DNA of 64,000 nucleotides from assembly GCF_932294415.1 (NCBI RefSeq), contig NC_065544.1, positions 13,925,351 through 13,989,350 of the forward strand. The letters run 5' to 3'. Each line of letters starts with the position of its first letter. Within the stretch, counting starts at the first letter, position 1. Below, in pieces: positions 10,481 through 49,396 of the stretch. The stretch is from Quercus robur. Its lineage: Eukaryota > Streptophyta > Magnoliopsida > Fagales > Fagaceae. Under the pieces are notes generated by a model. It was not told where the DNA came from, did no database searches, and saw only the letters and a program-made list of their open reading frames with translations. A program made the translations under genes and the position numbers.

Positions 10481-10689
10481 GTGTAGCTATATTGTTCCAA
10501 TTTTATCCTCGTTTGAAAAACTTAATGCCGATTGGATACTCACTCTAGCCTTCTTCGACTCAGAATTAGGGTCCTCGGCGAACAGCCGGGCCACAAAGAA
10601 CACCCTGAAAGGACAAGAACCAGTCCTCCTTAGAGCAGCAAAAATGACATTTATCTTACCCAAAGGAGGTCTTGAAGAATCATTTCTCT

Positions 10690-11874: not shown

Positions 11875-11937
11875 CTCTACCTGGTGTGGACTTGATCCCA
11901 CCATCATCAACCGTTACACTCACTATCACCTAAGTTC

Positions 11938-11955
11938 TTCCCACAGATGGTGCCA
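11938..11955 (-). other. Primer-binding site of the gypsy element
   Basis: Two bases inside the 5' LTR the minus strand reads TGGCACCATCTGTGGGAA. The second Tat-like element has TGGCGTCGTCTGTGGGAA in the same place (52750-52767). The TGGCRYCRTCTGTGGGA pattern is typical of plant Tat/Athila-type elements. I cannot fix the primer tRNA. Confidence 0.65.
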
Positions 11956-11957
11956 AT

Positions 11958-12744
11958 TGTACGAACACAATTTGGAGCCCAAGCCCAAAGTGTAAATGGA
12001 TATTGGCCTAGTGGGCCTAGTATAAGAAATTTGTAGAGAGTAGGTCAAAGAACTAGGCTCCATTGAATTGGATAACGATTAGAATGGATTTAAGAGAAAT
12101 CAAACAAAACCAAGAAGAATTTGTCTAAGTAAATTTGCCCTCGGCATAATCTGAGAAGGTCAGTTCTTATATAACTTAATTGAACAAGTTACAAGTACAA
12201 TTTTGATTGCTACAATACTTTCTCTCTCAATTTTTCTACCCCTTTTCTCTCAGGGTTCTCTCTCTAATTTATATCATCTTCCCTTCTCATCCTTCCCCTA
12301 CACGTGGACAGTAGATTGCTCGAGTTGATCCTTATCCCATCCACCCCCTCCTGAAATCTTTGGGAGTAGCTGTAAGGCTGAAAAAACACTGTTCAGAGAT
12401 CACTTCCTCATTAATGCGGCCAGGGAGTTAACTGCAGAGCATTCAATGCGGTGGCAGCAGCTTTCCCTTAGATATTTCTGAGCTCCCATCCCTCTTGTAC
12501 ATTCATGATGAATGTCCCTATCACTGAAACTTCCTGGAAGGTCACCTTGAACATTATGATATACATTTGACCTGTGCTTGGCTTATCCGAGGAGATATTC
12601 CTCCTCGGCCTACCTTCCCATTTGTAACCTACTCATGGGACTCTGAGCTAAACTCACCCACTACTATTTATTCGTCCTCAAATCACCCCACATTCTCGGC
12701 CAAGGCCCAAGGCCCAATATATAATTTGGGCCCTTATCCCTACA
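11958..12744 (-). repeat. 5' LTR of the gypsy element
   Basis: Intact 787-bp LTR, TG...CA, followed on the right by the target-site copy GGCAT at 12745-12749. It lacks the 960-bp insertion of the partner LTR and so shows the pre-insertion state of that site. Confidence 0.93.
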
Positions 12745-18627: not shown

Positions 18628-18685
18628 AACAGCTGCATGGACCAAAGTTTAAACCCATCAATCATCCTCTCATATCCTGTTGACA

Positions 18686-19414
18686 ATGTCTTCCTCACAC
18701 TTCACCTTCTCCATCTACTTTTTAACCTTTGCTCTCTTTCTCCAAACCATTTTTGGAGCTAGCCCTCTCTTCCATTTCTGTTCAAGCTCAGAGAACTTCA
18801 CCACCAATGACCCATATGGATCAAACTTAAAAAAGCTCTTGGGTAACCTTTACTATCAAACCCCTCTCCAGGGCTTTGGTCTTGGTTCAGTGGGTTCGTA
18901 TCCATACCAAACTAATGGACTTGCTCTTTGTCGTGGTGATGTTGCAACCACAGACTGCAAGACCTGTGTCAATGAGGCTAGCAATGAAATTCACAAACTT
19001 TGCCCATACAATAAAGGTGCCATTATATGGTACGACAATTGTCTTGTGAAGTACTTGAACAAGGATTTCTTTGGCCAAATTGATAATCAAAACAAGTTCT
19101 ACATGTACAACTTGAGAAATGTTAGTGAGCCGACAACATTTAACGAAAAAACAAGAAAGTTGTTGAGCCTCCTAGCCAAAGAAGCATCTGTTACACCAAA
19201 ACTGTATGCAGTTGGAGAGCTAGAGCTTGGAGAATCAAAGAAGCTTTATGGTTTGGCCCAGTGCACTAGGGATCTTTCTAACAGTGACTGCTTCAAGTGT
19301 CTTGATGGTGTAATTGGTGAACTTCCCCAATGTTGTGATGGGAAAGAAGGAGGAAGAGTTGTTGGTGGGAGTTGTAACATAAGATATGAGATTTACCCAT
19401 TTGTCAATTCTTAG
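18686..19414 (+). CDS. DUF26 (Gnk2-type) cysteine-rich repeat secretory protein, intact
   Basis: The gene is an intronless frame of 242 codons. The ATG at 18686 is chosen because it begins a standard signal peptide (MSSSHFTFSIYFLTFALFL, cleavage near Gly-Ala about residue 25). Two DUF26 domains follow, each with the diagnostic C-x8-C-x2-C motif: 'CRGDVATTDCKTC' in the first and 'CTRDLSNSDCFKC' in the second. There is no transmembrane segment or kinase after the second domain, so it is a secreted, apoplastic CRRSP38-like protein rather than a CRK receptor. Sites such as NFT and NVS could be glycosylated. The family includes ginkbilobin-2, a mannose-binding antifungal protein, and plasmodesmal proteins. 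The exact role here is unknown. It is the only member of four in this window without a visible lesion. Confidence 0.93.
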   Translation: MSSSHFTFSIYFLTFALFLQTIFGASPLFHFCSSSENFTTNDPYGSNLKKLLGNLYYQTPLQGFGLGSVGSYPYQTNGLALCRGDVATTDCKTCVNEASNEIHKLCPYNKGAIIWYDNCLVKYLNKDFFGQIDNQNKFYMYNLRNVSEPTTFNEKTRKLLSLLAKEASVTPKLYAVGELELGESKKLYGLAQCTRDLSNSDCFKCLDGVIGELPQCCDGKEGGRVVGGSCNIRYEIYPFVNS

Positions 19415-20700: not shown

Positions 20701-20818
20701 AAATGCAAAATCGCCTAAGAAATTACTGTGCCGCAACACCAAACATTCAACTTTTTTACATTGAACAGATGCAATCACGGCAAGTTGGATGGTTCGCTGT
20801 AATAGTTGCTTTTCCCTT

Positions 20819-21347
20819 TTGTCGTGGTGATGTTGCAACCACAGACTGCATGACTTGTGTCAACGAGGCTAGCAATGAAATTCACAGACTTTGCCCATAT
20901 AATAAAGGTGCCATTATATGGTACGACAATTGTCTTGTGAAGTACTTGAACAAGGATTTCTTTGGCGAAATTGATAATCAAAACAAGTTCTACATGAATA
21001 ACTTGAGAAATGTTAGTGAGGCAACAACATTAAATGCAAAGACAAGGGAGCTGTTGAGCCTCCTAGCCAAAGAAGCATCTGTTACTCCAAAACTGTATGC
21101 AGACTGCAGTTGGAGAGCTAGAGCTTGGAGAATCAAAGAAGCTCTATGGTTTGACCCAATGCACAAGAGGGATCTTTCTAACAGTGACTGCTTCAAGTGT
21201 CTTGATGGTGCAATTGGTGAACTTCCTCGTTGTTGTGATGGGAAAGGAGGAAGAGTTGACGTTGGTAGGAGTTGTAACATAAGATATGAGATTTACCCTT
21301 TTGTCAGCCATAACTCCATAAGCCTCTATATATACAGACCACCATAA
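20819..21347 (+). pseudogene. DUF26 gene relic, 5' end missing
   Basis: Similarity to the intact paralogue begins abruptly at TTGTCGTGGTGATGTTGC. The signal peptide and first ~80 residues are absent and replaced by unrelated DNA. The first C-x8-C-x2-C motif remains ('CRGDVATTDCMTC'). Near 21100 a 7-bp insertion duplicates ACTGCAG and shifts the frame. Near 21165 two extra bases restore it, so about 23 residues read differently and the first Cys of the second motif is lost. The stop codon is also lost and the frame runs on to 21347. Nucleotide similarity to the copy at 18686 is very high, suggesting a recent local duplication. Confidence 0.88.
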
Positions 21348-26790: not shown

Positions 26791-28021
26791 TTAGGAGCAC
26801 ACATCCTCTATCCCACGTCATGTATCACCACTCAGCTTGTGACACATGTCTATTATTAATATTGCTGACATCTCTTTTATTGACTAACTTTTTTTCAAAA
26901 CGTTAACGCTATATCTAAATAATGTCTCTGAGAGGTGGAATTTCACATTTACGTGTCGAATTCGTGTCATATTAACTCATGAGTATCCGACTATATGGGT
27001 CAATACTAACTCGACATGTTTATTAAACGAGTCAAGATTTTTCAACTCTAATACAATCTATTTATTAAACGGATCAATCGTGTCGACCTGTTTATTAGAT
27101 TTTATCAAAATGAAAAAATATATATATTATTAACCAAACTGAATTATGAAAAACCAAAAAAATAAATATTTTTAATATAAAATTCAAAACTAATAAGTAA
27201 CGGCATCACAAATAATCATTTAAAACTAAATCATATCTCAATATCACAAATAATCAATCATAACATGGTTAAAGAAAATAAATCACAACAACTAATAAAT
27301 TTATATACCTAGGATTTGAAAGGTATATTGGTAAATTGTCATTTAATTAAACGGGTTAGACAGGTCAAACGAGTTCTATATATTGGACACTAATACAACA
27401 ATTTTATTAAACAGATCTATCATGTCAACCTGAATATGACACTAACTCGTTAAGCAGCGTTTACAAAAACACAACTATAGACTGGCTTTGAGCAGCATTT
27501 GGCAAAAATGCAGCTATAGCAAAGATCAGCTCTATAGCCGCGTTTTGGCATGTTTGAGCTGCGTTTTTGTGGGTTGGGATTAGGCCGCGTTTTAAAAACG
27601 CGGCTACAAGTTTGTATAAAATAAAATTAAAAAAAAAAAAAAGAAAAAAAAAAAAACCCTAAACTATACTCTGGTCTCTCAGTCTCTCTCACTCTCTCCC
27701 TTTGACTCACAAACCCTCACCTTCAACCCACCCCTCTCTACCACCGATCCTCCTCCACTCTCAGTTTCACTCTACCGAGTCTCCACATCCCTCACTTGTG
27801 CGCTAAAAGTCCATTCAAAGACCTTAACTTTCCTTCATTCCAAACAAGGTACACACTCTTTTTCGTCTCCTCTTAATGAATCCTTTGTGACTTTACTGAT
27901 TTTGATCAGCTCGCTACTGTGTTTTTGTGTGTAATTACAGTGTGGTTTGTAGTTTTTTTTTTTTTGGGGGGGGGGGTGTGGGAATTGCTTTATAATTTGT
28001 CGAATTCTCTGAGTGTTTGTA

Positions 28022-28279
28022 ATGGCTGGTGGGTCATCGAGTCTTGGTTTTTTGAGAAACGAGGTTGTTTTGGGGAAGATGTGGAGTCAGAGTGTGGTTG
28101 TAGAGAGTGTGAGAGTCAGAAATGTGGTCAAGGTGGTGGCTTTGCCAGTGTTGTGTAGAAAAAATAGGAGGGTTGTGGTGGCGAATGTTTCAAAATCAAA
28201 CCCACTTGGTGAATCGCAGTCTGGTGTGGACTCTGTTTCGGTTACTTTGATTCAAATTTGTGTAAAATTGTTGATCTAA
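28022..28279 (+). CDS. Unidentified ORF in the Pack-type element (possible captured first exon)
   Basis: This frame of 85 codons starts MAGGSSSLGFLRNEVVLG and is rich in Ser, Val, Arg and Lys with few acidic residues. That composition would suit an organelle targeting peptide. It follows a CT-rich, leader-like stretch at 27660-27850, so it may be a captured 5' exon with its own promoter region. The last dozen codons (SVTLIQICVKLLI) may already be intron sequence. I do not recognize the donor gene. It could also be a chance frame. Confidence 0.35.
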   Translation: MAGGSSSLGFLRNEVVLGKMWSQSVVVESVRVRNVVKVVALPVLCRKNRRVVVANVSKSNPLGESQSGVDSVSVTLIQICVKLLI

Positions 28280-28698
28280 GGCAAATCTGAAAATGCAAGC
28301 ACTGTTTTAAATTTCAAACTAGTTGAATCACAAATAGTGTCTGTTACTAATTGTGGATTTCTTTGAATCACATATAGTATTAGTTTTACTTTGATGCCAA
28401 ACAAGTATGTTGAATGAGCTACTGGTTTTTTTTTTTAGGAAGTACTGTTGTGGTATAACTAGTTCAATAATGGTCTAAGTTTGGTTTCAATGAGTTTATT
28501 TTCACATCATAAGAGAATGTACGACTTTACTTAAATTTTTACACAATAAACAAAAGATACTGTTGAAAAAAAGCTCATTTAAACACAACCAGTTTCGCAT
28601 TTTTTATATATGCAGAGTGTTGTGTTTGTGTTTATATGATATGAGTTTTTTTTTTTTTTTTTAATTGCCTTGTTCTTTTGCGGTGCATTTGCGTGCAG

Positions 28699-28751
28699 GT
28701 TAGGGTTCTCCACTCTCTAGATCACGCAAATGTACTCAAATTTTGTTCCTG
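28699..28751 (+). pseudogene. Captured exon of a RUNKEL/ULK4-like protein kinase
   Basis: Between an acceptor (GCGTGCAG) and a donor (GTAAGG) lie 53 bases that read 'VRVLHSLDHANVLKFCSW'. This corresponds to the segment after the catalytic Lys in plant RUNKEL-type (ULK4 family) kinases, which act at the cell plate in cytokinesis. Only this one exon is present and no catalytic residues are included. Recognition rests on an 18-residue match from memory of the family, so the family assignment is moderately sure. Exon status is supported by both splice sites. Confidence 0.65.
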
Positions 28752-28899
28752 GTAAGGCCTTATACGAATGCAGAAACACAGAATCTACTGTTGTTAGTAC
28801 AGTTGCTTGCTGATTAGCCACTTGACTTGATGACTGCTTCTGAAATTTCAGTTTTGTTCTTCATTTTGCAATTATTATCATTATTATTATAATTGAGAT

Positions 28900-29233
28900 A
28901 TGCAGAAATTGGGTGATTTTAAGCTACCTCACTTCTTCAATTACCCTCCATACTTCATGTAATCTTCTTCTCTCTCTTTCTATATTTACTAATTATTTTG
29001 TGACATATCTTTTCAACATTGTGTTATTGAATCTTATTTTTCATTTGGAAATTGTGATTCATTCTATTACATACCTTGGTTTATGTTTGTCAGCTTGCAG
29101 CCTGTAAGGGACACCCGTGAGAAGCAGGTACAATGTTGGAAGGATCTTATTCTTGACTACTGTAGAACACAAAAGATATTTGTGATTGGACTGGAAGAAG
29201 ATTTTTTGCTATTTTCAAATTCTGCGATTGAAA
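28900..29233 (+). pseudogene. VPS25: Captured 5' exons of VPS25 (ESCRT-II subunit)
   Basis: Exon 1 (28900-28958) encodes MQKLGDFKLPHFFNYPPYF and ends at a GTAATC donor. Exon 2 (29094-29233) continues in frame with 'LQPVRDTREKQVQCWKDLIL' and 'DYCRTQKIFVIGLEEDF', then 'SAIE' and a GTAAGT donor. This is the N-terminal winged-helix part of VPS25, a subunit of the ESCRT-II complex that sorts ubiquitinated cargo at endosomes. About 65 of the roughly 180 residues usual for the family are present. The second winged helix, which contacts ESCRT-III, is not found downstream. Changes such as Cys for the usual Leu in 'QVQCWKD' suggest relaxed constraint. The reading frame is open across both exons. Confidence 0.9.
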
Positions 29234-30604
29234 GTAAGTCCTTTGTTTTTGTTAGTTTCTAATCTGCTCATTGAAATTTGTGTTTTTGAGTCCTAGAAAC
29301 TGTTTGACATATCAGTACCCTATAAGCATGGCCATTGTACATTTTGCCTTTGAAATTGGCAGAATGCCCTGCATTCTAGTGGACGGACTTGTTATTTGTG
29401 CTTCAACTGTATTATTGTTCATTATTACTCAAGAAATTGCACTTCATTCATAAAAGTTCAAATTTTTTGGCGTTCTGGTATTTTGGTGTGGAGCAGATCA
29501 GTTCTTCTCCATTTTGGAGGTTTTCCTCTTAAATATTTTTTTCCCACCTAGCAATAATTAATAAGTTAGTGAGGAGTGTTCCAAATTGAAGATGAAATCA
29601 AATTGGGGGTATCTTCTTCCAAATTGAGTTTTTTTTTTATTCAATAATAGAATATGGTTATTGAGACCTGATTTTCAAATCGGTAGACTTGCTAAAAAAG
29701 ATTTTTCATTCAGACACGTTAAACTAGGGAATCAAGAAACATTATAAGACGCATTAACTTTTTTTAAGGCTCCAAAATCTTTTGTTATTGGTTACATAAA
29801 TTCTTGATTAAAACAAAATAGAAACCCAGCTATAATGAAATTGTCATCTTTTGTCAGAACTAAGGATTGCCCAAATTTGACTCTTTTAGAAAGTAGAAAG
29901 ATGATTTTATAAGGGTTATATTCTTGTGTTTTATGGGTGGTACTCTTCTAGAAGAGTCTGGAATATTCAAGCGGTGAGGTGTCCCCACTAGCTGTCACCA
30001 TCAAGAATATTCCGTATCAAATTGTTACCACCTTTCCTATGTAAGAAATACACAGTAAGAGGGCCAGCATCCAATATTTTTCTAGCTCATTATGTAAATA
30101 TTCCTCCAGTATTATTTCTTTAATAGACACAAATTAAACTTCAAACAATAGTAGTAAACAATATTCACTGGCAAACACTGTTTGCTCTATTACCAAACTA
30201 GGAGAAAAAATATCTTTGCTAAATTAAGCTTATAAAGATTTACTTTCTGCATATGTGGGAGCTGATAATCAGATTAATTCAGCTGGCCCCATCTAAAAGG
30301 AATATCCTACCATGGGCACCTACTGTGGGGCATAGTGGTAATTTTTAGGGCTTTGGCCTTCATGAAGTATTATACCATATTGCTATTTTCCTGTGTTTCT
30401 GAAGCCATTATTTATAATTAACTACTGCTTGGTGATGATAATGGAATCTTTAAGATTTATAAATGCATGTGCGAATAGGTAATCTCTTGTGTCATTGAAA
30501 GTTGAAATAATAACTTAGGTTAATGTAAATGAGTAAATCCATCTTTCATATTATTATATACTATTTGAATTATAGTTAAGTAATTAAATTCAAAATTTCC
30601 TAAA

Positions 30605-30770
30605 AACTTAAGCTTTTTGGGACAATTGGTAATTTATCATGATATCAAAGCAAGAGGTCCCAAGCTTGATCCTTGTCTCCACTCTACCTTCCGTTTAAAA
30701 TATTAAAAATCAAATGTGTTTGGCCTCACTTAGGGCCACCCATGGATGGGTGGGTGCTGGGGGGGGGGGG
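30605..30770 (+). repeat. Possible SINE-like relic
   Basis: The block contains GAGGTCCCAAGCTTGATCC, which resembles a degenerate tRNA B box. It is followed by CCACTCTACC and a GGCCTCACTTAGGG...CACCCATGGATGGGTGGGTG segment and ends at a G12 run. I believe this is a dispersed plant repeat of SINE type, but neither TSD nor A box is clear. Confidence 0.3.
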
Positions 30771-30921
30771 GACAGTTTAAGCTTTTTGTGACATTCCGTA
30801 ATTTATCATATACTAATATTATAAAGAGAACCTCTTTAACCATAACTATCATGGTCATTATTGTTTCCTTTAGTAGCAATGCTAGTTCAGTTTATTATGA
30901 ACTGTTTCTGTATTTATGCAG

Positions 30922-30980
30922 CAGCCTTTTTTTGGCATGTTTGGATATGGAGGACCTATTGCATCTATGCATCTGGGGAG
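30922..30980 (+). pseudogene. Exon-like fragment of unidentified gene
   Basis: An acceptor (TTTATGCAG) is followed by 59 bases in the frame 'QPFFGMFGYGGPIASMHLGR' and then a GTATAG donor. Gly-rich and free of stops, with splice sites on both sides and lying in the same orientation as the other captured exons, it is probably another captured exon. I do not recognize the donor gene. Confidence 0.45.
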
Positions 30981-32194
30981 GTATAGCCTCATGATCTCTC
31001 TCTCACCCCCCCTCCCCCCTCTTCTTCTCCTTTTAGAGTAATTTCATATCCTGGTGTAGTAATGCCTCGGATTCATGTGTGCATAGTTTATTTGTTATCC
31101 TGAACTATGCATTATCCTGCACTTTATTTTTTGATAAGTGCACTATCATTACGGATGACTCATGTTTGAGAATCTTAAACGGTTCTGCTGATAATTTTTA
31201 TTTATTTATTTATTTTTATTATTATTTAATTTTGAGTTTAAATGCTCTAATTTGCTCAATAGTTTTTTGAATAATATAGGGGTGTGGTTTAGATAGGGAA
31301 TAATATTACTCTATAATCACTAATTATGTCATATAATTCTGGATATGAACTTGATATTGAATTGAATAAATTGCATATTATCCTTTTCCTTTTCTTCTTT
31401 TCTGAGGCAATAATTATAAGAGCAAAGAATAGCAGATCTACAAAGGCTTGAAAGAGTGAAGGATATGTGTGTGTTAAAATTAATGTGAAAATGTTGCCTG
31501 GGAGTAAGTGTGTACAATCATAGGACATATACGTAAATAAAACAGACATAAGAATGTCTCAAGAGAGATTTTAAATACGAGGGTAATATATAGAAAATTT
31601 CTGATATGGATAAGGCTTAATAGGATCAACATATTACTTAATTTATGCATTTTCTTACTCTTTTCCTACTAAAATAGGATTTACCATAATGAATCATAAA
31701 ATGCTATATCTCCTGAAGTTTTTTAGAAGAAAGAAAGAAATTTCTTTATTAGCATATTTACCTTGCAATATGGATAAAATTTAATGAAATGTACATTAAT
31801 TAGTATGGGCACTTCTAGTGGAGTGCCATTTCTTATTAGAAATGACATGAATTCACCAAGTTACCTGTTTTATGCCATTGGCAATGCTTTGGATGTGTAC
31901 ATAACTTCTAAATTCACTCTTGGTTGGGTTGCTTGCTTCATTTCTATGATCTTATTTTTTTAAGACTTTCTTCTGTTGACAATTCTATTTCATTTAGAGT
32001 CTGTCTTGTATTCTATTCATTAAAAACAATGATTTTCAAAATTTATGTGCTTCAATGTTGTTTTCTATTTATAAGCATATATATGTTTTTTTTTTTTTTT
32101 TTTTGTTGCCTTAACTTTTGGGGTTTGACTCTTTGAAGAGTATGAACATCAGAAAGGTGTTTATTTGCCTTATCTGGGGTTTTCTATGTTGCAG

Positions 32195-32603
32195 AATTCA
32201 ACTGAGATGGACTTTTTCTCCGAATATGGTGACGCCAACAAATACAAAATTCAGGAAGTTATTGGAAAAGGAAGTTATGGCGTTGTTTGCTCAGCAATTG
32301 ACACTTGCGCTGGTGAAAAAATGGCAATAAAGAAAATACATGATATATTTGAACACATATCTGATGCTGCGCGTATTCTTCATGAGATAAAGCTGCTCAG
32401 ACTTCTACAACATCCTGGTATTGTTGAAATTATACACATTATGCTTCCACCCTCTAGAAGGGACTTTAAAGATATTTATGTTGTTTTTGAGCTCATGGAA
32501 TCAGATCTTCATCAAGTCATCAAAGCCAATGATGACCTGACACGAGAACACTATCAGTTTTTCCTATACCAACTACTTCGTGCCTTGAAGTATATTCACA
32601 CTG
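32195..32603 (+). pseudogene. Captured exon of a group-D (TDY-type) plant MAP kinase
   Basis: After an acceptor (CTATGTTGCAG) the exon reads 'NSTEMDFFSEYGDANKYKIQ' and continues with the glycine loop 'GKGSYGVVCSA', the ATP-binding Lys in 'MAIKKIHDIFEHISDAA', the helix-C Glu in 'HEIKLLRLL' and 'VFELMESDLHQVIKANDDLT'. It ends at 'LLRALKYIHT' with a GT donor, a native exon border in this family. These are signatures of the long plant MAPKs with a TDY activation loop. The catalytic HRD, DFG and TDY segments are missing, so no active kinase can be made. The whole 409-base exon is open, and nothing more of the kinase is found downstream. Confidence 0.9.
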
Positions 32604-33176
32604 GTACTTGTTTTAAGCTAATTTCCTGATACCTTTACCCTTGATCTTGACTTTTCTTAATCTCAATATAAAGCAAAAGTTAGTTTATTAACAGAATGTG
32701 ACAATCTTAAATGTCATATTTGAGTAGTTTAGGCTGGCTGAAACCTATGGTTGTCGCTTCTTTCAGTTCTACCCATACATTTAGGAAATAGTTCCCTTGT
32801 ACAAGCTTGCTTCATTGAACTTTGTGTACTGCATTTTTTTTCCTCCCCCTCCCCCTTGACTATTCCAAACATTTTGACTATATAATTTTTTTCCCGTTAC
32901 CTTTAACATGTCAGCTCTACAACTTAATGCTAAAGTTTATTATATGCCAACATAATATTTTAGTTGATCATCAACATGGGCATAAATTCTTCTTTGCTTC
33001 CAAATTTTGTCTAGCAATCTTTTGTCATGGTTTCTAAGTAGTTTTAGTTCAGCCTTATGTATAACTTTTATTTATATGTGTTTCTTTCTTTCTATTGCAA
33101 AACCTTAGTAGTGATGATCATGTGTCCTCAATATTACTAAATCAAAAGATATGTCATTACTTTTGTACTTTTCCAG

Positions 33177-34527
33177 TTTCATGCTGTAGCAGATCAGCTG
33201 TATGGTGATCCTGACCTCCATACATTTGTAAGAGACTGGTTATTGAACAGGTTGGTTGCTATCCAATAAAGTTACTCTTTTATAAAGGAATTTGAGTCCT
33301 AATGTCCAAAAGCAAGTCAAGGTTTTATTTTTTTTCCCGTGTTGATGTCAATAGCTCAAGTCTCAACTGGAACTTTACAAGAATTACGTTCTTATGTCTT
33401 ATAGTGACTACTTGGAGAAAATGAGCAAGTATTTTGGCATTCTCTCTTTTTAAGTTATAGCATTCATGAATGTTTACTTAGAACTATTTCATACTTACAC
33501 TCTTTGACATAAATAAAATAGGGAAGGTGAATGGGGTGATCATGTCACATTGCAGGCTGCCGCAGATTGGGTAAGAGGAGCTTCCCAAACCTTTCTATTT
33601 GCTTTCAGCTGTCCTGTCCTTAGAAAATTTTGAACACATTTGGTCATTGAACCCTCTATTACTTCATAGCCAAAAAAATGTGTATGAGGTCACATTTATT
33701 AGTTTCTATTCAGAGGGCGCTAATTAACAGTGCTTCCTTAATTTCATTTTAGCTATTTTGAGAATATATAATATGATTACAAATTGCTAACAACTTTGAT
33801 ATTAAAATTTTGATGCGGAACTTCAAATTGCGAAATTCAGAATTTTATTGGTGGAAAAAATTTTGTGAGAGCAATTTATTTCTAACTCAAAATTTACCTT
33901 CATCTAATTGTAAATAAATTGGTCGATTATTGATTAGGAAAACACTAGGTGCCTTAATGTTTTTTCATCATCACTTGTGATTTTTATGGAAATTTCCTTT
34001 TCCTTTTTTTTCTATATGGGTTCATGCAACTTATGATGTACTGATGTACATGTGTGATTTACCATTTTTTTTTCTTTGTTAATTTCTTCTTTTGATAAGT
34101 GATGCATGTTTACCTTGTGATTGTAGTTTGGTGTCAAGATATTTTTGATTACTTCCTTTAAGGATACTTGTTACACTGAGATTCTTCCCCACATTCAAAA
34201 GTCCAAAAGAGGTAAACTTTTTACAAGTATTCATTTATCCCTATGAAACTTGATGTGAATTACAAACTTATATCAAGGTCATAATAGTTCTCATTGATAG
34301 ATATGTCATACTTTTTATTAGGACTCACTTTTTATTTTTCACTCAAATGACTTTTCCGAATTCATTCTTATAGAAAGTTGCAACTTCATGCCCCTTAATT
34401 TTTGGGCCATGCCTTAATTTTATACTTGGTAAACTGTGAATATGAAATTAATGAATTGTGGATTTTGCAGTTCTTATGTTAAGCATTTGGGCAGAGACCC
34501 ATTACAATTCAATTAATCCAGAAGCAG
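33177..34527 (+). pseudogene. Captured exons of an OTU-domain deubiquitinase (OTU9-12 type)
   Basis: Five exon-like blocks lie in the correct order. 33177-33250 reads 'FHAVADQLYGDPDLHTFVRD'; 33355-33428 reads 'LKSQLELYKNYVLMSYSDYL'; 33522-33570 reads 'EGEWGDHVTLQAAADW'; 34127-34211 reads 'FGVKIFLITSFKDTCYTEIL'; 34471-34527 reads 'VLMLSIWAETHYNS'. Together they cover the C-terminal two thirds of an OTU cysteine protease, including the catalytic His in the 'WAETHYNS' block. The exon carrying the catalytic Asp and Cys (G-D-G-N-C) is absent. GT-AG borders are kept at nearly all junctions. The first block appears one base short at its 3' end (AACAG where AACCAG is expected), which shifts the frame. 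Non-functional as a protease. Confidence 0.9.
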
Positions 34528-34719
34528 GTAAACATCTATATAATTATAAACTTCATAACTCAACATATGCTGAGCTTTATGGTTAGATAACCCACCTTAG
34601 GCTCCATTCTATTAGTGGACTTAAAAGTATGCTCCTAGCCTCCATAAGAAGAATCAAGTAGAAGGAAAACAAAATACTCTCTCTTGCCAATTAATCCCAC
34701 TTCAAATTGACCATTGTAA

Positions 34720-34906
34720 GAGTTCACTTGGATACAGCTTATTTTGCTGGAAACTGAAAATTGAAAACACTGTAGCAAAATAATTTTTAAATGTGTGAAT
34801 AGTACCGTGGGACTCATTTTTAATATTTTTTCTGAATAAAATGGCTGTGGGTCCTATGAACAGTACATGCACAGTAACTTTGTCTCCTACCTAGAAACAC
34901 GTGCAT

Positions 34907-34938
<32 letters not shown>

Positions 34939-34985
34939 GCCAGACACAAACGTTCTGGCTTTTTCAGCCGGATCTAAACAGTCAC
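34720..34985. mobile_element. Tourist-like (PIF/Harbinger) MITE
   Basis: A 266-bp element starting GAGTTCACTTGGATACAG and ending CTAAACAGTCAC, flanked on both sides by TAA, the TWA target of PIF/Harbinger elements. Its interior (TGTAGCAAAATAATTTTTAA, then GTGTGAATAGTA) matches the second copy at 40508-40783. It contains a poly(A) run of about 30 bases. It is nested in the Pack-type element. Confidence 0.8.
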
Positions 34986-35635
34986 TAAATAAAAGGAGAA
35001 AGCACTACTTGGAAACACACATCAAAATATGGGCTGCTAAATGAAGGCGGCTATGCAGTAGTAGTTCCTACCTTGAGTTGATACTAATACCAGAGAAAGA
35101 AAAAAAAAGACTGACTTTATTTAACGACCATTATAGCCTGATGTATCTAATTGTTTTGAAACTTTGTTTCTTAGCTTTCGCTAACTGTTAGAGGCTAACC
35201 TTAATGTAGCTCAATTGAAGAAAAAGACCAACAAGCCCAAGAGACCTTCTATTCAGTAATTATTTGGTACACTCTTCTTCAACTAGAATTGCCTGACTTA
35301 ATATGTTTATTTCAATATGTATCTGCACTCTCATAACTCTTATTTCCATGTTTTTCCCCCATAACTCTTAATCTGTTTTGAGTTCTGATTTAGCAAGAAA
35401 TTGTGATTTTGGGCACAAAGTTGTGATTTAGCAAAAGAAAAAAAAAACCTATAGACAAAACAAATGTAGGAGGCTTTACTATAGCCGCATTTTTTAAAAA
35501 CGCGGCTATAAGTCTCAGCCTATAGCCGTCTTTTAGAAAACGCAGCTATAGGTGTGAGCCTACAGCCGCGTTTCAAACGCAGCCCAAAGCGGGTCTATAG
35601 CCATGTTTTTACAATTTTGCCACCCTTACGTCTCT

Positions 35636-36207
35636 CTCTACTACTAAGTGTCACGTGGCTGTTTTTTTTTTTTTTTTTCCCTTCTTCTCTCCCTCTCTAC
35701 AGCAGAAAGGGTATTTCATGATTTTGCTGTTTGCTCTTTTTCTTTTGAGCTCCAATTCACTACAACTTTGGTTTGAAGTTTGAACAACAGATTCTCTGCC
35801 CGGCTGTTGTTAAGCTTTTAGGATCAAGAAATAAAGCTGAATTTGTTAAGAAGACCAAACACTACCCATTAAAAATTCATAAAAATGAGATAGCTCTTAT
35901 TCTTAATTAAAATGTTAACGGACTTAAACCATACAAAAGAAAGACCAAGAAAAAAAAATAATAAAAACAAAGCTAGAACTCCTAATAAGTTAGTTTGAGT
36001 CATCACGAGATAGTGAAGAAAATCAAACAACACAGATCTATATTAAATTATGAAAGAAAACAAGATTAATTTTATAGCAAATTTTAATGGTCTGGCAATG
36101 CAAATGGAAGGAGATTATCTGCAAAAGCAAATTAAGGACAAACAAATTTTACAGAACAAAAACCTCATTAAATATCAGGCTGATGAGCAACTGATTGTTT
36201 CAATAAG
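35636..36207. other. Intergenic DNA, no gene seen
   Basis: AT-rich, with a T16 run near 35665. A 75-codon Lys/Asn/Ile-rich frame at 36050-36277 runs into the MITE at 36217 and is not a gene. Confidence 0.6.
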
Positions 36208-36216
36208 AATAAAAAT

Positions 36217-36613
36217 GACAAAGTTTAGCTACAAAATTGTTTATAGTATAAGATTACAACCTTACTCAATAAAATAAACATTATTACATATTTTGAAAAT
36301 TTAACTGTTGGGTTGCATATTGTTTATACTCTTAATACAAATGCCAACTTTAGTGCCAATCGAATGTTATTTATTATATGATCTATAACCTTATATTTTA
36401 TACATAATTTTAAATTACAAAAACTTGCAATTTAAACAATTTATTGATAATATAGCTATTAATCTTTAATTTTCTAGAAATTTTACAAGTATGAAGGATA
36501 TAAGAATAAGAGGTAATCTAATGGTAGATTTATCAAAATTTATATCTAATAAAAAGATATTAAGTAAGATTGTAACCTTAGGCTACAACCAATTTTATAA
36601 CTAAATTTTGTCC
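36217..36613. mobile_element. Mutator-like MITE, single copy
   Basis: A ~397-bp element from GACAAAGTTTAGCTAC to AACTAAATTTTGTCC, so the ends are inverted repeats. AATAAAAAT occurs as a direct repeat on both sides (36208-36216 and 36615-36623), a 9-bp TSD as expected for Mutator-like elements. The interior matches the copies at 43925-44920, 45156-45549 and 57440-57849. Confidence 0.85.
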
Positions 36614-36828: not shown

Positions 36829-37574
36829 ATGTCTTCCTCACACTTCACCCTCTCCATCTGCCTTCTAACCTTTGCTCTCTTTTTCCAAAGTTCCAAACCA
36901 CTTTTGGAGCTAGCCTTATCTTCCATTTTTGTTCAAGTTCTGCTGGGAACTTCGCCTCCAATAACTCATGTGAATTAAACCTCAACAATCTCTTGGGAAA
37001 TCTTTATAACCAAACCCCTCCACAGGGTTTTGGTCTCATTTCAGTTGGTATTTCTCCAAACCAAGCTTATGGGCTTTCACTTTGTCGAGGTGATGTTAGT
37101 GCCACAGACTGCCAGACTTGTGTTAATGAGGCTAGCAGTGAAATTCCTCACCCCTGCCCATATAATAAAGGTGCAATTATATGGTACGATAATTGTCTTT
37201 TGAAGTACTTGAACACTGACTTCTTTCACCAAATTGATAATCAAAACCAGTTCTCATTGTGGAACCCTCAAAACGCTAGCAATACCACAACATTTACCAA
37301 TCAAACAAGGGAGTTGTTGAGCCTACTAGCCACAGAAGCAACACTCACCCCAAAACTCTATGCAGTTGGAGAGCTAGACTATGCAGTTGGTGGTTCATAT
37401 AAGCTCTATGGTTTGGTACAATGCACCAGGGATCTTTCTAGCAATGACTGCTTCAAATGTCTTGACGGTATAATTGGTGAACTTCCTGATTGTTGTAATG
37501 GTAAAGTCGGGGGAAGAGTTGCCACTGGGAGATGCAACATAAGAAATGAGATTTACCCTTTCTTTAGTTTTTAG
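36829..37574 (+). pseudogene. DUF26 secreted-protein gene, frameshifted in the signal peptide
   Basis: The ATG at 36829 starts 'MSSSHFTLSICLLTFAL' as in the intact paralogue. Near 36885 an 8-bp duplication (TTCCAAAG-like) shifts the frame before the end of the signal peptide, and the ATG frame soon stops. From 'QTTFGASLIFHFC' onward the original frame is fully open to 37574, with both motifs intact ('CRGDVSATDCQTC' and 'CTRDLSSNDCFKC'). The mature protein is undamaged but can no longer be secreted from this start. The promoter context (TATAAATA near 36750) is also kept. A recent single-event pseudogene is the simplest reading, and a sequencing error cannot be excluded. Confidence 0.85.
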
Positions 37575-40507: not shown

Positions 40508-40783
40508 GGGTCCGTTTGAATTGAACTTATTGCTACTAAAACTGAAAACTAAAAATACTGTAACAAAATTATTTTTAAATGTGTGAATAGTATCGTGAGA
40601 CCAATTTTTAATATTTTTTAACCCGTGAACAATGCCAAACAGTATATGAACAATGCTCAACAGTATGTGAACAGTACTATTGTCCCCTTAAAGCAGAAAC
40701 TGTGCAGGAAAAAAAAAAAAGAAAAAAAAGAAAAGTAAAACGCAAAATGCAGACTTGACTTTCAACTGGATCCAAACCGGCAC
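40508..40783. mobile_element. Tourist-like (PIF/Harbinger) MITE, second copy
   Basis: A 276-bp element from GGGTCCGTTTGAATTG to CAAACCGGCAC, flanked by TTA on both sides (40505-40507 and 40784-40786). The interior shares the ACTGTARCAAAATTATTTTT and GTGTGAATAGTA blocks with the copy at 34720-34985. No coding capacity. Confidence 0.82.
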
Positions 40784-40895
40784 TTAATTAGGCTTTGGTG
40801 CTCTAGGCCATATTTGGCCCAATTTTATGTCTTACGAGGTGGCTTTTTTTTTTTTTTCTTCTATATATATATATATTTATAAAGAGAGAGGGAGA

Positions 40896-43924: not shown

Positions 43925-44920
43925 GGACAAAATTTAGCTACAAAATTAATTGTAGTCTAAAGTTACAAACTCACTCAATAAAATAAGTGTTACTACATAT
44001 TTTGAAAATCTAACTGTTGAATTGCATGTTCCTTATATTCTTTGACAAACCAAATAAATCCCCTCGTCCAGATAAGTCTACTCTGAACGAGGGAAAGTGC
44101 CATTAAGCATATATTTATTGGGAAACCGTTACTCACCAATGAAAGCAGGAAACATGGCCGTTGGAAGAGATATCAAATCCTCTCATTTAAGCCACCCTGG
44201 GATGTTACGAAAAGGCATTGAAATCACCATTGAATACCACCAACGACTAGAAGGAAAAGCCCTATATATAGGCAATGTCAAACCCAAAAGGAGGTACGAA
44301 TTCATTTTTATCCACATATAACAAAATCAGAGCTCTAGCCATTACTATTATTCCTCAGTTATTTGACTTTGCCATTGGAGACTCAGTGGCTGACACCACA
44401 CCGATGACTTCTCGAGTGGAAGTTCTCTTTTTGTTCTTGTGCAGGTCACCTAACAACCTTGAGCGACATCATGTCTAGATGATCACCACGATTGACGATT
44501 CTGGCATCATCACTCTCAATACACATGTTAAATTTTGTGTCAATTGATTGTAGTTTAAAGTTACAAACTCACTTAATAAAATAAATATTACTACATATTT
44601 TGAAAATCTAACCGTTGAATTGCATATTCTTTATACTCTTAACACATATGTCAAATTTTGTATTAATCGGATAATATTTACTGTATGATCTATAAGTTTA
44701 TATTTTATGCATAATTTAAAATTACAAAAACTTGCAATTTAAAAAATTTATTGATAACATAGCTAGTGATCTTTAATTTTCTTGAAATTTTGCAAGCATA
44801 GAGGATATAAGAAGAAGAAGTAATCCAATGATGGATTTGTCAAAATTCAACTCTTATAAAAGGATATTGAATAAGATTGTAACCTAAGATTACAACCAAT
44901 TTTGTAACTAAATTTTGTCC
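43925..44920. mobile_element. Mutator-like MITE, apparent partial dimer with nested solo LTR
   Basis: The outer ends GGACAAAATTTAGCTAC and AACTAAATTTTGTCC are flanked by identical 9-bp repeats ATTTTAATA (43916-43924 and 44921-44929), so the whole block was one target-site insertion. Inside, the left 115 bp (43945-44040) is repeated in direct orientation at 44545-44645 (TTACAAACTCACT, ACTACATATTTTGAAAATCT). A solo LTR at 44043-44512 interrupts the first unit. The second unit is a near-complete MITE lacking its left terminus. Confidence 0.8.
44043..44512 (+). mobile_element. Solo LTR (gypsy type) inside the MITE
   Basis: This block starts TGACAAACC and ends GGCATCATCA, with TATATATAGG near 44264 as a core promoter and the ATTCTGGCATCATCA end usual for plant gypsy LTRs of the Tat kind. 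MITE sequence resumes on the right with CTCTCAATACACATGTTAAA, which continues the left flank. Flanking five-base words (TTCTT and CTCTC) are only loosely similar. Confidence 0.65.
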
Positions 44921-44984
44921 ATTTTAATAAAAAATAGCTAGTTGTTATTGAGAAAAGATAGTCAATTAGTGCAATTATAACAAC

Positions 44985-45152
44985 AAGATTACCAAAAATA
45001 ATTTCTAAAAAATTAAAGATCAATAACTATGTCATCAATAAATTGTTTAAATTTCAAATCTTTGTAATTTAAAAATAAGCATAAAATATAAGCTTATAGA
45101 TCATCTGTGTTAAAAGTGTAAAGAACATGCAATCCAACAGATATATTTTCAA
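44985..45152 (-). repeat. Partial inverted copy of the Mutator-like MITE
   Basis: TTAAAGATCAATAACTATGTCATCAATAAATTG and adjoining blocks are the reverse complement of the MITE's inner half. It directly abuts the next copy at 45156. Confidence 0.65.
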
Positions 45153-45155
45153 AAT

Positions 45156-45549
45156 GACAAAGTTTAGCTACAAAATTAGTTGTAACTTGAGGTTACAACC
45201 TTACTTAATAAAATAAACATTACTACATATTTTAAAAATCTAACCATTGAATTGCATATTTTTTATGATCTTAATATAGATGTCAAATTTTGTATCAATC
45301 AGATGTTATCTACTATATGATCTATTATTTTTAATGCATAATGTTATTCTACAAAAATTTGCAATTTAAACAATAAATTGATGCATAGCTATTGATCTTT
45401 AATATTCTAGAAATTTTACAATAATTGAGAATATTAAAAAAAAAAATGTAATCTAATGGTGGATTTGTCAAAATTTACATCCAATAAAAAAGATATTGAA
45501 TGAAGTTGTAATCTTAGGCTACAATCAAGTTTGTATCCAAACTTTGTCC
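45156..45549. mobile_element. Mutator-like MITE, full-length copy
   Basis: Starts GACAAAGTTTAGCTACAAA and ends CAAACTTTGTCC with the family's interior in order. A clean 9-bp TSD is not seen. The right flank TTATTATTATTTGTATA is identical to the right flank of the copy at 57440-57849, so this family member may extend further or both may come from one duplicated segment. Confidence 0.75.
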
Positions 45550-45793
45550 TTATTATTATTTGTATATTGATGTGCATGAAATATATATAATGAAATATCC
45601 TCATATATGCATCTTTAACGTCATTATTATGTTTTTTTTTTGAGGTAAATAGGTAGAAACTTTTATTTAGTAAAAACATTGTAAGTACAAGGGAAGTATA
45701 TGCCCTGTTTTCAAGTCCGAGAAACAGGGGATAAAAGGAAACATAATAAAAAAACTCCACTATTGCTACGTAGCAGTCAGCCCTTCATAAGCT

Positions 45794-48700
45794 TCACTGT
45801 TGACTCTCGGCCTCTCTGTTCTGCTGTTGTGCCTGCATAAATCTCTGATATTCTTGCAAGAATCTGGTAGCCCCCCTCAGTATGTCTCTTGGATGGAGTT
45901 GGATCCGTTCAAAGTAATATTTGTTTCTTGCGTTCCAGATTGCCCACGCTATGACTGCCCACTTCTCCACATCATGCTCTTCTAATTTACTCACCATCCT
46001 TTGGAGAAGCATAAAGAAATCACCTTCTGTATTGGGGCATTTCTGAATTCTTCCACTACAGAGAGCCCATACGTTCCTTGCTAGGGGGCATTCCCACAAA
46101 AGGTGTCCAACTGATTCAGGCTTCTGGCAGCACATACCACACATGGGGTCTACCTGCACTCTTCTCCTGTTTAAGTTCTCTCTGGTTGGCAATATATTTG
46201 AGCATGCCCTCCAGAGGAACATACGGACCTTTGGTGGCACGTTCAACCGCCACACCTTCCTCCAGATTGATCCGTCTCTTCTGGCTGCTGAGTGCTCACT
46301 CCGAACAATGTCCCTCATCCGTATAGCTAGCTTATAGGCAGACTTCACCGCGAAAGCACCTGATTTTGTCTCCTTCCATATCAAGGTGTCTCGGCTTCCA
46401 TCCTGTGGCAGTGCAGTATCCAGAATCTCCATCCTTGTCCTGTGTGCAAAGAGGTTGAAAACTTTCTCCCTATCCCATTGTTTCGTATGCCCGTCTATCA
46501 GGTCCTCAACCATCATCCCCTGCTGTTGTTCACCCAGAAAAACCGGTTCATGAGATAGCCAGTTGTGTGTACTGACACCGATAGTTCGACCATCTCCCAC
46601 CTTCCACTTGGACCCTCTCCGTATGATGTTTCTTGCTGCAAGTAAGCTTCTCCATACATAGGATGGATTATTTCCCAACTCAGCATCCATGAAAGAGCAG
46701 TTTGGGAAATACCTTGATTTGTACACCCGATAGAACAGTGAGTGTGTGTTATGGATAAGTCGCCATGCTTGTTTTGCTAGCAAGGTTAAATTGAAAGCTT
46801 GTATGTCTCGAAACCCCATCCCTCCTCTTGCTTTTGGGCTGCACAGCTTTTCCCAATTGATCCAATGAATTTTCTTTTCATCCTTCGTCTGGCCCCACCA
46901 ATATTTAGCTATTGTGGAGTTTAGAGTGTCACATAAGGCATTTGGGATTTTGAAAATTCCCATGGTGTATGCGGGGATGGCTTGGGCCACCGTTTTGATG
47001 AGTATCTCCCTTCCGGCCTTTGAAATAAATTTCTCCTTCCACCCCATCACTTTCTTTGTAATTTTCTCTTGTAAGCCTCTGAAAGTGTTGACCTTTGATC
47101 TTCCACCGGTCATGGGCAAGCCTAGGTATGGTTCACAATCTTCCATAATTCTGCCCCCTAATAGTGCCTGTATTTCTGCCTTAACCGAATCCCTTGTATT
47201 TTTGCTAAAGAAGATGGAAGTTTTGTGACTATTTATAGCTTGTCCTGAAGCAGCTGCATACCTCCCAAGAATATCTAGAAGGTGTTGCCCCTCCTCCCTT
47301 GTGGCTTGGCAAAAAATAAAGCTATCGTTTGCAAACAACAAGTGAGAGATGCATACTCCATTTTTACAAGATAAAATCCCATGTAGGTGTTTTGTCTCCA
47401 CAGCCTTTCGTATAAGGGAAGAAAGGCCCTCCGCACATAGTAAAAATAGATAGGGAGATAGTGGGTCTCCTTGTTTTAAGCCCCTTGAAGGTGAGATATA
47501 CCCCTTTGGTTCTCCATTAATGAGCACCGAGTATGTTGCTGTATGAACTGTCTCCATAGCCATTTGCACCCACCTTCCATCAAACCCCAATTTTAGCATG
47601 ATTTGCCGGAGGAAAGACCACTCAACCCGGTCATAGGCTTTGCTGATATCCAGCTTGATTGCCATCTGCCCTTTCTTTCCTGTTCTTTTATTCCTCATCC
47701 TGTGCAACACCTCAAAAGCTACAGTTGTATTATCAGTTATCAATCGGTTTGGAACAAAAGCACTTTGTGAATCCGATATTACATTGGGCAGAATTAATTT
47801 CAAGCGATTTGCTATCACTTTAGAGACAATTCTGGATACAACATTTCCTAGACTAATAGGCCGGTAATCAGATACATTTTTTGGCTCATTTATTTTTGGA
47901 ATAAGGACAATGTGTGTGTAATTCATCTTATGCAGAAAATGGCCTGAATGTAGAACAGATAAAATAGCACTCGTGACATCATTACCTACTACATGCCAGA
48001 ATTTTTGGAAAAAGAAAGGAGACATACCATCGGGACCTGGAGACTTTGAGGGGTGCATGCTGAACAAAGCCTTTCTAACCTCTTCTGGTGTGTAGGGCTG
48101 AAGGAGTGCATGGTTCATATCTGGATGGACCACCTTATCCACCGAGTCCAAGACCGACTCCAAATTTGTTGGGTTTGATGTTGTGAATAAATTCTGAAAA
48201 TACTTTTCAGCCAATCTGGCTATGTCAGCATCCGATGTACACCATTGTTCATGCTCATCAAGGAATCCATGGATATGGTTCTTTCTTCTTCGTTGGCTGG
48301 CTCTCTGATGAAAGTATCTTGTATTTTTGTCTCCTGCAGGTAGCCAAATAGCCCTAGATCGCTGCCTCCAAAACAATTCATCTTTTAAGAGCAAACAATT
48401 AATCTCATCCCGAACTTTGTGAATCTGGTCTTGGTTTTCGGCTAGGTTCATAGAGGTTAGTGCTTCCAATTCGGTGTACTTCGATTCAATTTGCTCCTTA
48501 GAATTGCCTAAAGTTCGGCTCCACCTCACCAAGGCCATGCGGCAAGCTTTTATTTTTTCAAATAATTGGTACATAGGACTACCCATGAGGTTCACTCCCT
48601 CCCATACCTCACAGATCACCCCCTCACAAGCTGGATCCGAAGCCCACCTTTCTTCAAACCTCTTTGGCTTTCGTCTTCTACTTGTAACCTGTGTGACTTC

Positions 48701-49396
48701 CTGTGTTTTAATTAAGATTGGCTCATGATCGGAGTATGCCGCATGAAGATGATGCACTCTTGCAAAAGGATAAATCTCCCTCCATTTAGTGTTTGCACAT
48801 GCCCGGTCCAACCTCTCTTGAACAAAAGCCCTTCCCGGTCTCCCATTCCTCCAGGTAAATATGTTCCCAATGAAACCAAGATCACTCAACCCACAGTGTA
48901 ATAGTGCTTGTCTAAAATCCTCCATTGGTCTGTGTGGTCGTGGGAGGCACCCTTGCTTTTCTTCTGATGACAGTATCTCATTGTATTCACCCACACACAG
49001 CCACGGCATGGAGTCTCTAGAGTGCAGATGCCTCAATAGTACCCAAGACTCATGTTTTCGATGTGCCTCCGGTCTTCCATAGAAACCTGTTATTCTCCAA
49101 GGTGTAGGTTGATTATTCATGATTCGTGCGTCTATATGATTCAAAGAAAAAGTTTGCACGTGTAAATCAACACCTGCCTTCCACATCATTGCGAGTCCAC
49201 CCGCTCTATGGACACATGGGACTGCTAGCATAGAAGCATAGTGTAAATCTGCTTGAATAAGTTTCATCTCATCAACTGTCTGTTTTGTCTCCATAAGAAA
49301 CAAAATATCGGGAGCCTTTTCTCTCACCAAATGAGAGAGTATAGTTCCTGCACGGAGGTTCCCAAGCCCCCGGCAGTTCCAGCTTAGGACGATCAT
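45794..49396 (-). CDS. LINE ORF2: endonuclease - reverse transcriptase - zf-RVT
   Basis: The frame has 1200 codons without interruption. The N-terminal apurinic-type endonuclease is visible ('MIVLSWNCRGLGN', 'LFLMETK', 'AYSDHEPILI'), occupying roughly residues 1-230. The usual G-D-F-N motif reads 'GEYNEI', a Glu at a normally invariant Asp. The reverse transcriptase follows at about 480-760 ('HPSKSPGPDGMSPFFFQKFW', 'RPISLGNV', 'GLKQGDPLSPYLFLL'). The catalytic F-A-D-D box reads F-A-N-D (47324-47335, residues 688-691), replacing one metal-binding Asp. A zinc-binding zf-RVT region with 'CGMCCQKPESVGHLLWECPL' lies near 1090. No RNase H domain follows. The enzyme would nick target DNA and copy its RNA there, but both active sites look damaged. 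Confidence 0.92.
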   Translation of the reverse strand: MIVLSWNCRGLGNLRAGTILSHLVREKAPDILFLMETKQTVDEMKLIQADLHYASMLAVPCVHRAGGLAMMWKAGVDLHVQTFSLNHIDARIMNNQPTPWRITGFYGRPEAHRKHESWVLLRHLHSRDSMPWLCVGEYNEILSSEEKQGCLPRPHRPMEDFRQALLHCGLSDLGFIGNIFTWRNGRPGRAFVQERLDRACANTKWREIYPFARVHHLHAAYSDHEPILIKTQEVTQVTSRRRKPKRFEERWASDPACEGVICEVWEGVNLMGSPMYQLFEKIKACRMALVRWSRTLGNSKEQIESKYTELEALTSMNLAENQDQIHKVRDEINCLLLKDELFWRQRSRAIWLPAGDKNTRYFHQRASQRRRKNHIHGFLDEHEQWCTSDADIARLAEKYFQNLFTTSNPTNLESVLDSVDKVVHPDMNHALLQPYTPEEVRKALFSMHPSKSPGPDGMSPFFFQKFWHVVGNDVTSAILSVLHSGHFLHKMNYTHIVLIPKINEPKNVSDYRPISLGNVVSRIVSKVIANRLKLILPNVISDSQSAFVPNRLITDNTTVAFEVLHRMRNKRTGKKGQMAIKLDISKAYDRVEWSFLRQIMLKLGFDGRWVQMAMETVHTATYSVLINGEPKGYISPSRGLKQGDPLSPYLFLLCAEGLSSLIRKAVETKHLHGILSCKNGVCISHLLFANDSFIFCQATREEGQHLLDILGRYAAASGQAINSHKTSIFFSKNTRDSVKAEIQALLGGRIMEDCEPYLGLPMTGGRSKVNTFRGLQEKITKKVMGWKEKFISKAGREILIKTVAQAIPAYTMGIFKIPNALCDTLNSTIAKYWWGQTKDEKKIHWINWEKLCSPKARGGMGFRDIQAFNLTLLAKQAWRLIHNTHSLFYRVYKSRYFPNCSFMDAELGNNPSYVWRSLLAARNIIRRGSKWKVGDGRTIGVSTHNWLSHEPVFLGEQQQGMMVEDLIDGHTKQWDREKVFNLFAHRTRMEILDTALPQDGSRDTLIWKETKSGAFAVKSAYKLAIRMRDIVRSEHSAARRDGSIWRKVWRLNVPPKVRMFLWRACSNILPTRENLNRRRVQVDPMCGMCCQKPESVGHLLWECPLARNVWALCSGRIQKCPNTEGDFFMLLQRMVSKLEEHDVEKWAVIAWAIWNARNKYYFERIQLHPRDILRGATRFLQEYQRFMQAQQQNREAESQQ

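Follow-up and report, generated by a model that had tools for sequence, protein, structure and literature searches.

Exon shuffling by transposons is known in plants. In soybean, the CACTA element Tgm-Express1 of the wp allele contains pieces of five unrelated genes, introns as well as exons, and Zabala and Vodkin (2007) found twelve distinct alternatively spliced chimeric transcripts of it by reverse-transcription PCR (PMC1947982). The Pack-MULEs of rice are sometimes transcribed from promoters in or near their ends (Jiang et al. 2004, cited in PMC1947982 and PMC13317346). The general biology of Pack-type elements is covered in PMC8903248 and PMC13317346, and new cargo may, as discussed by Gisby and Catoni (2022, PMC8903248), be acquired when the external ends of two adjacent elements are used for mobilisation; Quercus and oak are not mentioned in the main text of the latter paper. 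Among the listed titles and opening parts of abstracts on oak and Fagaceae elements, neither Pack elements in oak nor the element that is presented here are described. In this study, we analysed a 64,000-nucleotide stretch of Quercus robur DNA (NC_065544.1, positions 13,925,351 to 13,989,350 of the forward strand; hereafter the window), in which a block of gene fragments at 27454-35612 (8,159 bp) is, with a probability of roughly 0.7, a non-autonomous terminal-inverted-repeat (Pack-type) transposon of oak that carries DNA of six host genes, introns included, and is inserted in a dispersed repeat.

Judging from the published descriptions, the closest precedent appears to be Tgm-Express1. Both have inverted ends, pieces of unrelated genes (five there, six here) and preserved splice sites, and both join donors in chimeric mRNAs with open reading frames, which for the oak block exist as an annotated model alone (PMC1947982). 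However, Tgm-Express1 lies inside a host gene and its transcripts start at the promoter of that gene, whereas the putative promoter of the oak block is a captured fragment; the CACTA termini are also absent in the oak block. The rice Pack-MULEs are likewise non-autonomous and hold host gene fragments between inverted ends (Jiang et al. 2004, cited in PMC1947982 and PMC13317346), but no 8-11-bp target-site duplication was found for the oak block and its ends consist of short palindromes, the best inverted pieces of which reach 71 and 74%. It also corresponds to the Pack-TYPE elements as non-autonomous DNA transposons with captured coding DNA between inverted ends, although a target-site duplication, which was not found for the oak block, serves as a filter in the detection of such elements (PMC8903248). 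The fragments of several donors and the intertwined exons recall the transcripts of gene-carrying maize Helitrons (PMC4528327), from which the block differs by having inverted ends and lacking a Helitron 3' end. The locus combines six donors, all in sense direction, with a promoter-like leader in front.

At the level of sequence homology, it was confirmed that six unrelated host genes have contributed fragments to the block and that every fragment lies on the plus strand. The donors are RETICULATA, a kinase (one exon), VPS25, a GHKL ATPase, a gene like that of mitogen-activated protein kinase (MAPK) 20, and an OTU gene. The initial annotation, which was made from the letters of the DNA, had proposed at least four donors; this number held and rose to six, as the 5' open reading frame (ORF) belongs to RETICULATA and an exon that had been left without a name to the GHKL ATPase. 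Several of the exons also occur in an annotated protein, P0028, which is described below. The features of the block and its borders are as follows.

26964-27453, no strand: left flank, copy of a dispersed repeat broken by the block (79.7% identity to window 61411-60905, minus strand, over 508 aligned columns)
27454-27612, plus strand: left end, made up of CTATAG/GCGG palindromes, in inverse orientation to the right end
27615-27848, plus strand: TATA-like TATAAAATA and leader-like stretch, from reading of the sequence
28022-28249, plus strand: N-terminal coding part of RETICULATA exon 1 (the 5' ORF at 28022), from homology search and PF11891
28699-28751, plus strand: kinase exon VRVLHSLDHANVLKFCSW, from weak PDB kinase matches
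28898-28958, plus strand: VPS25 exon 1, which holds the VPS25 start codon, from Pfam, PDB, homologues and P0028
29094-29233, plus strand: VPS25 exon 2, from the same four sources
30925-30980, plus strand: GHKL-ATPase exon PFFGMFGYGGPIASMHLGR, from weak homologues that agree
32195-32603, plus strand: MAPK20-like exon, N-terminal part of the kinase domain up to YIHTG, from Pfam Pkinase, PDB and homologues
33177-33250, plus strand: OTU exon a, frameshifted near 33230, from homologue comparison
33355-33428, plus strand: OTU exon b, from homologue comparison
33522-33570, plus strand: OTU exon c, which in P0028 follows the MAPK exon directly, from homologues and P0028
34127-34211, plus strand: OTU exon d, which carries the P0028 stop codon at 34146-34148, from P0028 splicing
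34471-34527, plus strand: OTU exon e, followed by intron DNA, from homologue comparison
34751-34990, no strand: short repeat nested in the captured OTU segment (72% to window 40539-40788)
35474-35612, minus strand: right end, made up of CTATAG/GCGG palindromes, in inverse orientation to the left end
35613-35629, no strand: right flank, final 17 bp of the dispersed repeat that the block interrupts, AATTTTGCCACCCTTAC (16/17 identical to the copy at 60.8-61.4 kb)

A six-frame Pfam scan of 27454-35612 (E 0.05) returned ESCRT-II and two kinase families in two of the plus frames, while the third plus frame and all three minus frames had no match, which agrees with the single orientation described earlier; the scan missed the split OTU exons. 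All ten placed exons (10/10) are preceded by AG and followed by GT, as the initial annotation had noted for most of them; the borders were set where homology ends, and this agreement is partly by construction. Seven of these exons and the six intervening introns are used by P0028, an independent public model. The retention of one intron of VPS25 and four of OTU indicates that the capture took place at the DNA level. The homologues that were considered include the best 120 of 489 and the best 120 of 990 in two protein searches, and candidates were limited to 0.55-1.75 of the query length, so other chimeras could escape.

The exon blocks of VPS25, MAPK and OTU were found where they had been placed, on the plus strand. 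In the case of VPS25, the two exons matched Pfam ESCRT-II with an E value of 7.6e-16 and the PDB VPS25 chain 2zme_C with 2.4e-9, and they were 92% identical to three Quercus VPS25 proteins among the matches listed. RETICULATA (PF11891) accounted for 13 of the 24 matches of one search at 81-97% identity (Quercus 81-97%, Lithocarpus 81 and 92%, Castanea 87-88%, two others 92%), and its homology breaks off inside the donor exon, after the residues SVSV (about 28243); a PDB search with this part gave no match up to E 1. The kinase exon had a weak best match in the PDB (LIM domain kinase 2, E 0.068) and is kinase-like; RUNKEL, the name that the initial annotation had attached to it, is a putative name for the donor. 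The GHKL exon was recognised by the other 11 of these 24 matches, each with an E value of 0.0088-0.44; 9/11 bear PF13589 and 11/11 align to 30925-30980, and its motif was also read in four homologue proteins. These matches are weak singly but agree with each other, which points to a GHKL ATPase, presumably of the GMI1/MORC-like subtype.

The MAPK exon is open across its full length, matched Pkinase with an E value of 6e-22 (Pfam positions 1-116 of 263) and had a best non-self identity of 94.9%; among the best 120 of 990 matches, the named plant proteins include MAPK 10, 20 and 8. It had been called a TDY-type MAPK: the MAPK part of that name stands, whereas TDY follows from the match to MPK20/MPK10, as the captured exon stops before the activation loop. 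The kinase motifs HRD and DFG and the activation loop are missing from it. A Pfam match of the same exon to Pox_VLTF3 (E 0.11, below its cut-off) was dropped as a chance hit.

The OTU capture, which the initial annotation had also noted, comprises five collinear exons, a-e (33177-34527), with a frameshift in the first; Pfam OTU matched with an E value of 3e-5 and the PDB also gave a match, the query in the Pfam, PDB and homologue searches being 16 residues short (part of exon b). Exons b-e share 82/88 residues with the Castanea proteins P0025 and P0026 and 81/88 with P0027, and the exon with the GDGNC cysteine, which is present in the Castanea relatives, is missing from the block. When it is read through, the intron DNA after exon e gives the C-terminal 19 residues of P0026, and 35018-35071 resembles, by eye, the tail of P0027; based on these likenesses, the OTU-derived DNA probably extends to about 35.07 kb, around the nested repeat, which shares an A-rich stretch with its second copy at 40539-40788. 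As a separate observation, the last 19 annotated residues of P0026 (Castanea mollissima CMV_018158) are identical to the translated post-exon-e intron in the window, and the C-terminus of that public record is probably an intron read-through.

The inverted CTATAG/GCGG modules that were said to bound the block proved to be well above chance. The ends are built of CTATAG-GCCGCG-T/A-rich palindromes, with hairpins at 27491-27515, 27584-27604, 35480-35510 and 35565-35583 and a 40-bp period in the right end (35479-35573). Alignment of the left end to the reverse-complemented right end scored 94, while 1000 dinucleotide shuffles of the right end gave a mean of 25.7 and a maximum of 51 (0/1000 reached 94). 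In direct orientation the ends scored 62, likewise above all of the shuffles, because the end units are palindromic. The inverted similarity covers about 140 bp with gaps; its best pieces span 74 columns (74% identity) and 82 columns (71%), and the better one is out of end-to-end register. Host gene fragments of six donors thus lie between inverted ends (score 94, shuffle maximum 51), and in this sense the block is Pack-type. No transposase was found by the six-frame Pfam scan of the block, which small fragments could escape.

The earlier assignment to a Pack-type transposon is supported by the gene fragments, the inverted ends and the Pfam result on transposase. It was not extended to a superfamily, since neither CACTA termini, target-site duplications of 3 bp or 8-11 bp nor a Helitron 3' end were found. 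CACTA...TAGTG termini are absent: CACTA occurs at 27388 and 27440, in the flanking repeat, and not at the right end, and TAGTG is in neither end region. A 3-bp target-site duplication of the CACTA type had no exact match up to 2 bp from the borders. Of the 8-11-bp duplications of the MULE type, none was seen at 9 bp with one mismatch allowed, nor at 11 bp with two. Two near matches of 8 bp (1.6 expected) and one of 10 bp do occur at the borders, not above the number at random places; the pair GCGTTTACAA/GTTTTTACAA was dropped as a target duplication, being no more frequent than at random places (1 found against 1.8 expected). CTRRT, the Helitron 3' end, is absent within 35560-35640. CACTA proper was dropped for the missing termini together with the missing 3-bp duplication, and MULE proper for the missing 8-11-bp duplication. 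Soybean CACTA elements have palindromic subterminal repeats with GC-rich and AT-rich portions (PMC2613891), and the hairpin-rich ends of the block resemble them; this is a resemblance only, in a feature that is not CACTA-specific.

The similarity of the left flank to the dispersed repeat ends exactly at the block border (27453), and on the right it resumes 61 bp further along the repeat than the left junction, in a short match of 17 bp, for which no significance was computed. Both flanks match one repeat family, in order, and the alignment places the block inside a single copy of the repeat with about 61 bp of the target missing.

The public model P0028 is named 'mitogen-activated protein kinase 20-like isoform X2 [Quercus robur]' and has 252 aa with ESCRT-II and kinase domains. 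In silico splicing of 28730-28751, 28898-28958, 29094-29233, 30925-30980, 32195-32603, 33522-33570 and 34127-34148 reproduced it at 252/252 residues, and the chimeric spliced transcript that the initial annotation had envisaged is borne out in the form of this annotated protein model. Four of its six junctions join different donors, and two lie within a donor (VPS25 exon 1-2 and OTU c-d). The VPS25 and MAPK exons are read in their own frame, and the kinase-like, GHKL and OTU exons in others; the kinase exon supplies the start codon at 28730, where P0028 begins with MYSNFVPD. The product contains the first 66 residues of VPS25 (about one third), the N-terminal part of the kinase domain and out-of-frame OTU sequence, and it omits OTU exons a and b. 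It is without HRD, DFG, the activation loop, about two thirds of VPS25 and the GDGNC OTU exon, and it is probably inactive as a kinase, an ESCRT-II subunit or a deubiquitinase. Its stop codon is 63 nt upstream of the 3' border of exon d. Nonsense-mediated decay acts on transcripts in which a stop codon is located far enough upstream of a later exon junction, and a transcript that continues to exon e could therefore be its target. The predicted structure of P0028 had a mean predicted local distance difference test (pLDDT) score of 48.8 on a rough alignment of 28 rows, in which the VPS25 rows probably lie over kinase columns, and the model was too poor for a fold search.

The 5'-most part of the block is consistent with a captured promoter. 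The TATA-like TATAAAATA at 27615-27623 is followed by the leader-like stretch that the initial annotation had placed at 27660-27850; 27656-27848 has no ATG in 193 nt and ends at a GT donor (CAAG, then GTACAC). The stretch 27615-27848 is probably promoter-proximal DNA or the 5' untranslated region of RETICULATA. When the leader (to 27848) is spliced to 28699, the first ATG is that at 28730, where P0028 starts.

The captured copies differed in how far they have drifted at conserved sites, the consensus for which was defined by the homologues themselves (119 of 262 proteins for MAPK, 12 for VPS25, 107 for OTU and 12 for RETICULATA), which favours the homologues. The MAPK exon departs at 7/104 conserved columns (homologue median 1; 1/119 reaches 7), and OTU exons b-e at 5/51 (median 0; 1/107 reaches 5). 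For the VPS25 exons, departures were found at 2/56 columns (median 0; 1/12 reaches 2), while RETICULATA with 1/64 shows no excess (median 1; 7/12 reach 1). This points to a relaxed constraint on MAPK and OTU and weakly on VPS25, but not on RETICULATA.

In the explanation that we prefer, a transposon would have gathered genomic DNA with its introns from six host genes and then landed in the dispersed repeat. The RETICULATA upstream region with its leader and TATA-like box (27615) would serve as promoter and 5' untranslated region. The spliceosome may then join exons of unrelated donors because the downstream fragments keep their GT-AG borders in the sense direction, and in the form spliced from the leader to 28699 the first AUG, at 28730, would open the 252-aa protein. 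With every fragment in sense orientation, a forward transcript of the element itself would give no antisense RNA against the donors. Several observations weigh against a transposon of this kind. Neither a target-site duplication nor canonical termini are present at the block ends, about 61 bp of the target repeat are absent at the insertion site, and the right-flank repeat match spans just 17 bp; both outermost end units seem, by eye, to be cut in mid-palindrome, so the true termini may be lost. The shared orientation of 6/6 fragments, with a chance of about 1 in 32 by arithmetic, is alone weak evidence. P0028 is a predicted protein, the cluster of which comprises six sequences that were sourced from ncbi, uniref and nr and not from lgn, jgi or ena. 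The 263 fetched proteins include no further chimera, as P0028 alone matches more than one fragment. The missing duplication, the missing 61 bp and the broken end units would also suit a block that was assembled by repeated insertion and repair at one place, in which the inverted ends are two separate palindromic repeats, as would the fact that no second copy is known (none of the ends in the 64-kb window). This assembly is nevertheless unlikely, since both ends belong to the same unit family, are inverted and lie where the block meets a single interrupted repeat. Helitrons collect gene pieces in one orientation, as seen here for several donors, but Helitrons are not known to have inverted ends, and together with the absence of CTRRT this makes such an origin very improbable. 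Ordinary host genes in order, chimeric only in appearance, would account for the collinear OTU exons a-e and scarcely deserve credence: none of the other five donors has more than two exons in the block, the RETICULATA homology stops inside an exon, and the missing exons of the donors do not follow in order within the block, the OTU GDGNC exon and the rest of the kinase being absent.

A different question is whether the Pack-type element is expressed. It is possible, though on the doubtful side, that it is real but silent and that the isoform X2 model was produced by gene prediction that strung open exons together without a transcript. The sources of P0028 (just ncbi, uniref and nr), its mixture of exons in and out of the donor frame and the unconstrained look of the captured MAPK (7/104) and OTU b-e (5/51) copies speak for silence; however, P0028 passes over OTU exons a and b, its short out-of-frame exons lie at exact splice sites, and it begins at the first ATG that a plausible leader splice offers. 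Its name also implies at least one further isoform, and isoform variants in an annotation are usually based on transcript alignments. At the other extreme, the element could be a new oak gene, in which the captured RETICULATA promoter and leader drive alternatively spliced mRNAs for the 252-aa product of VPS25 (66 residues) and MAPK20. If so, ESCRT-II assembly or MAPK docking could be affected by the product as a decoy or dominant-negative partner, or small RNAs derived from the transcript could instead tune the donors. We regard this as highly improbable: the drift at conserved sites of MAPK, OTU and slightly VPS25, the poor predicted fold and the possible nonsense decay weigh against a selected protein, and as far as the data show the chimera is a by-product of capture and not a selected gene.

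The Pack-type element would be a concrete case of exon shuffling by a transposon in a long-lived tree. Moreover, a chimeric gene model sits in public databases under a misleading name, 'MAP kinase 20-like', without the catalytic part of the kinase, and surveys of the oak MAP kinase gene family may count such chimeras as genes.

The G+C content of the block is 33.6%, compared with 35.8% for the window, in which Rfam at gathering thresholds gave no matches. Copies of Stress-antifung (PF01657) genes, presumably the family also called DUF26, lie on either side of the block on the plus strand (18680-19414, 20703-21347 and 36993-37574), and similar pieces are found at 58728-59291; the surroundings look like a gene array broken up by transposons. 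A long interspersed nuclear element at 45794-50906 on the minus strand has an open 1200-aa ORF with endonuclease, reverse transcriptase and zf-RVT domains and, upstream, a second ORF with DUF4283 and a zinc knuckle. Direct repeats of about 740 bp (87%) at 52010-52749 and 55725-56469 flank an array of 15.8 tandem copies of an 80-bp unit (53021-54269), and 52010-56469 looks like a non-autonomous long terminal repeat (LTR) element with an internal array. LTR-like repeat pairs were also found within 838-12744 (838-1285/11956-12402, 93%; 2242-2600/12399-12744, 91%), which suggests one LTR element, the first repeat of which was split by an insertion of about 950 bp; this region also contains an 81-bp tandem array at 6076-6642. 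Additionally, 36212-36613, 43926-45573 and 57459-57873 belong to an AT-rich repeat family, the copies of which (about 76-89%) occur in both direct and inverted orientation.

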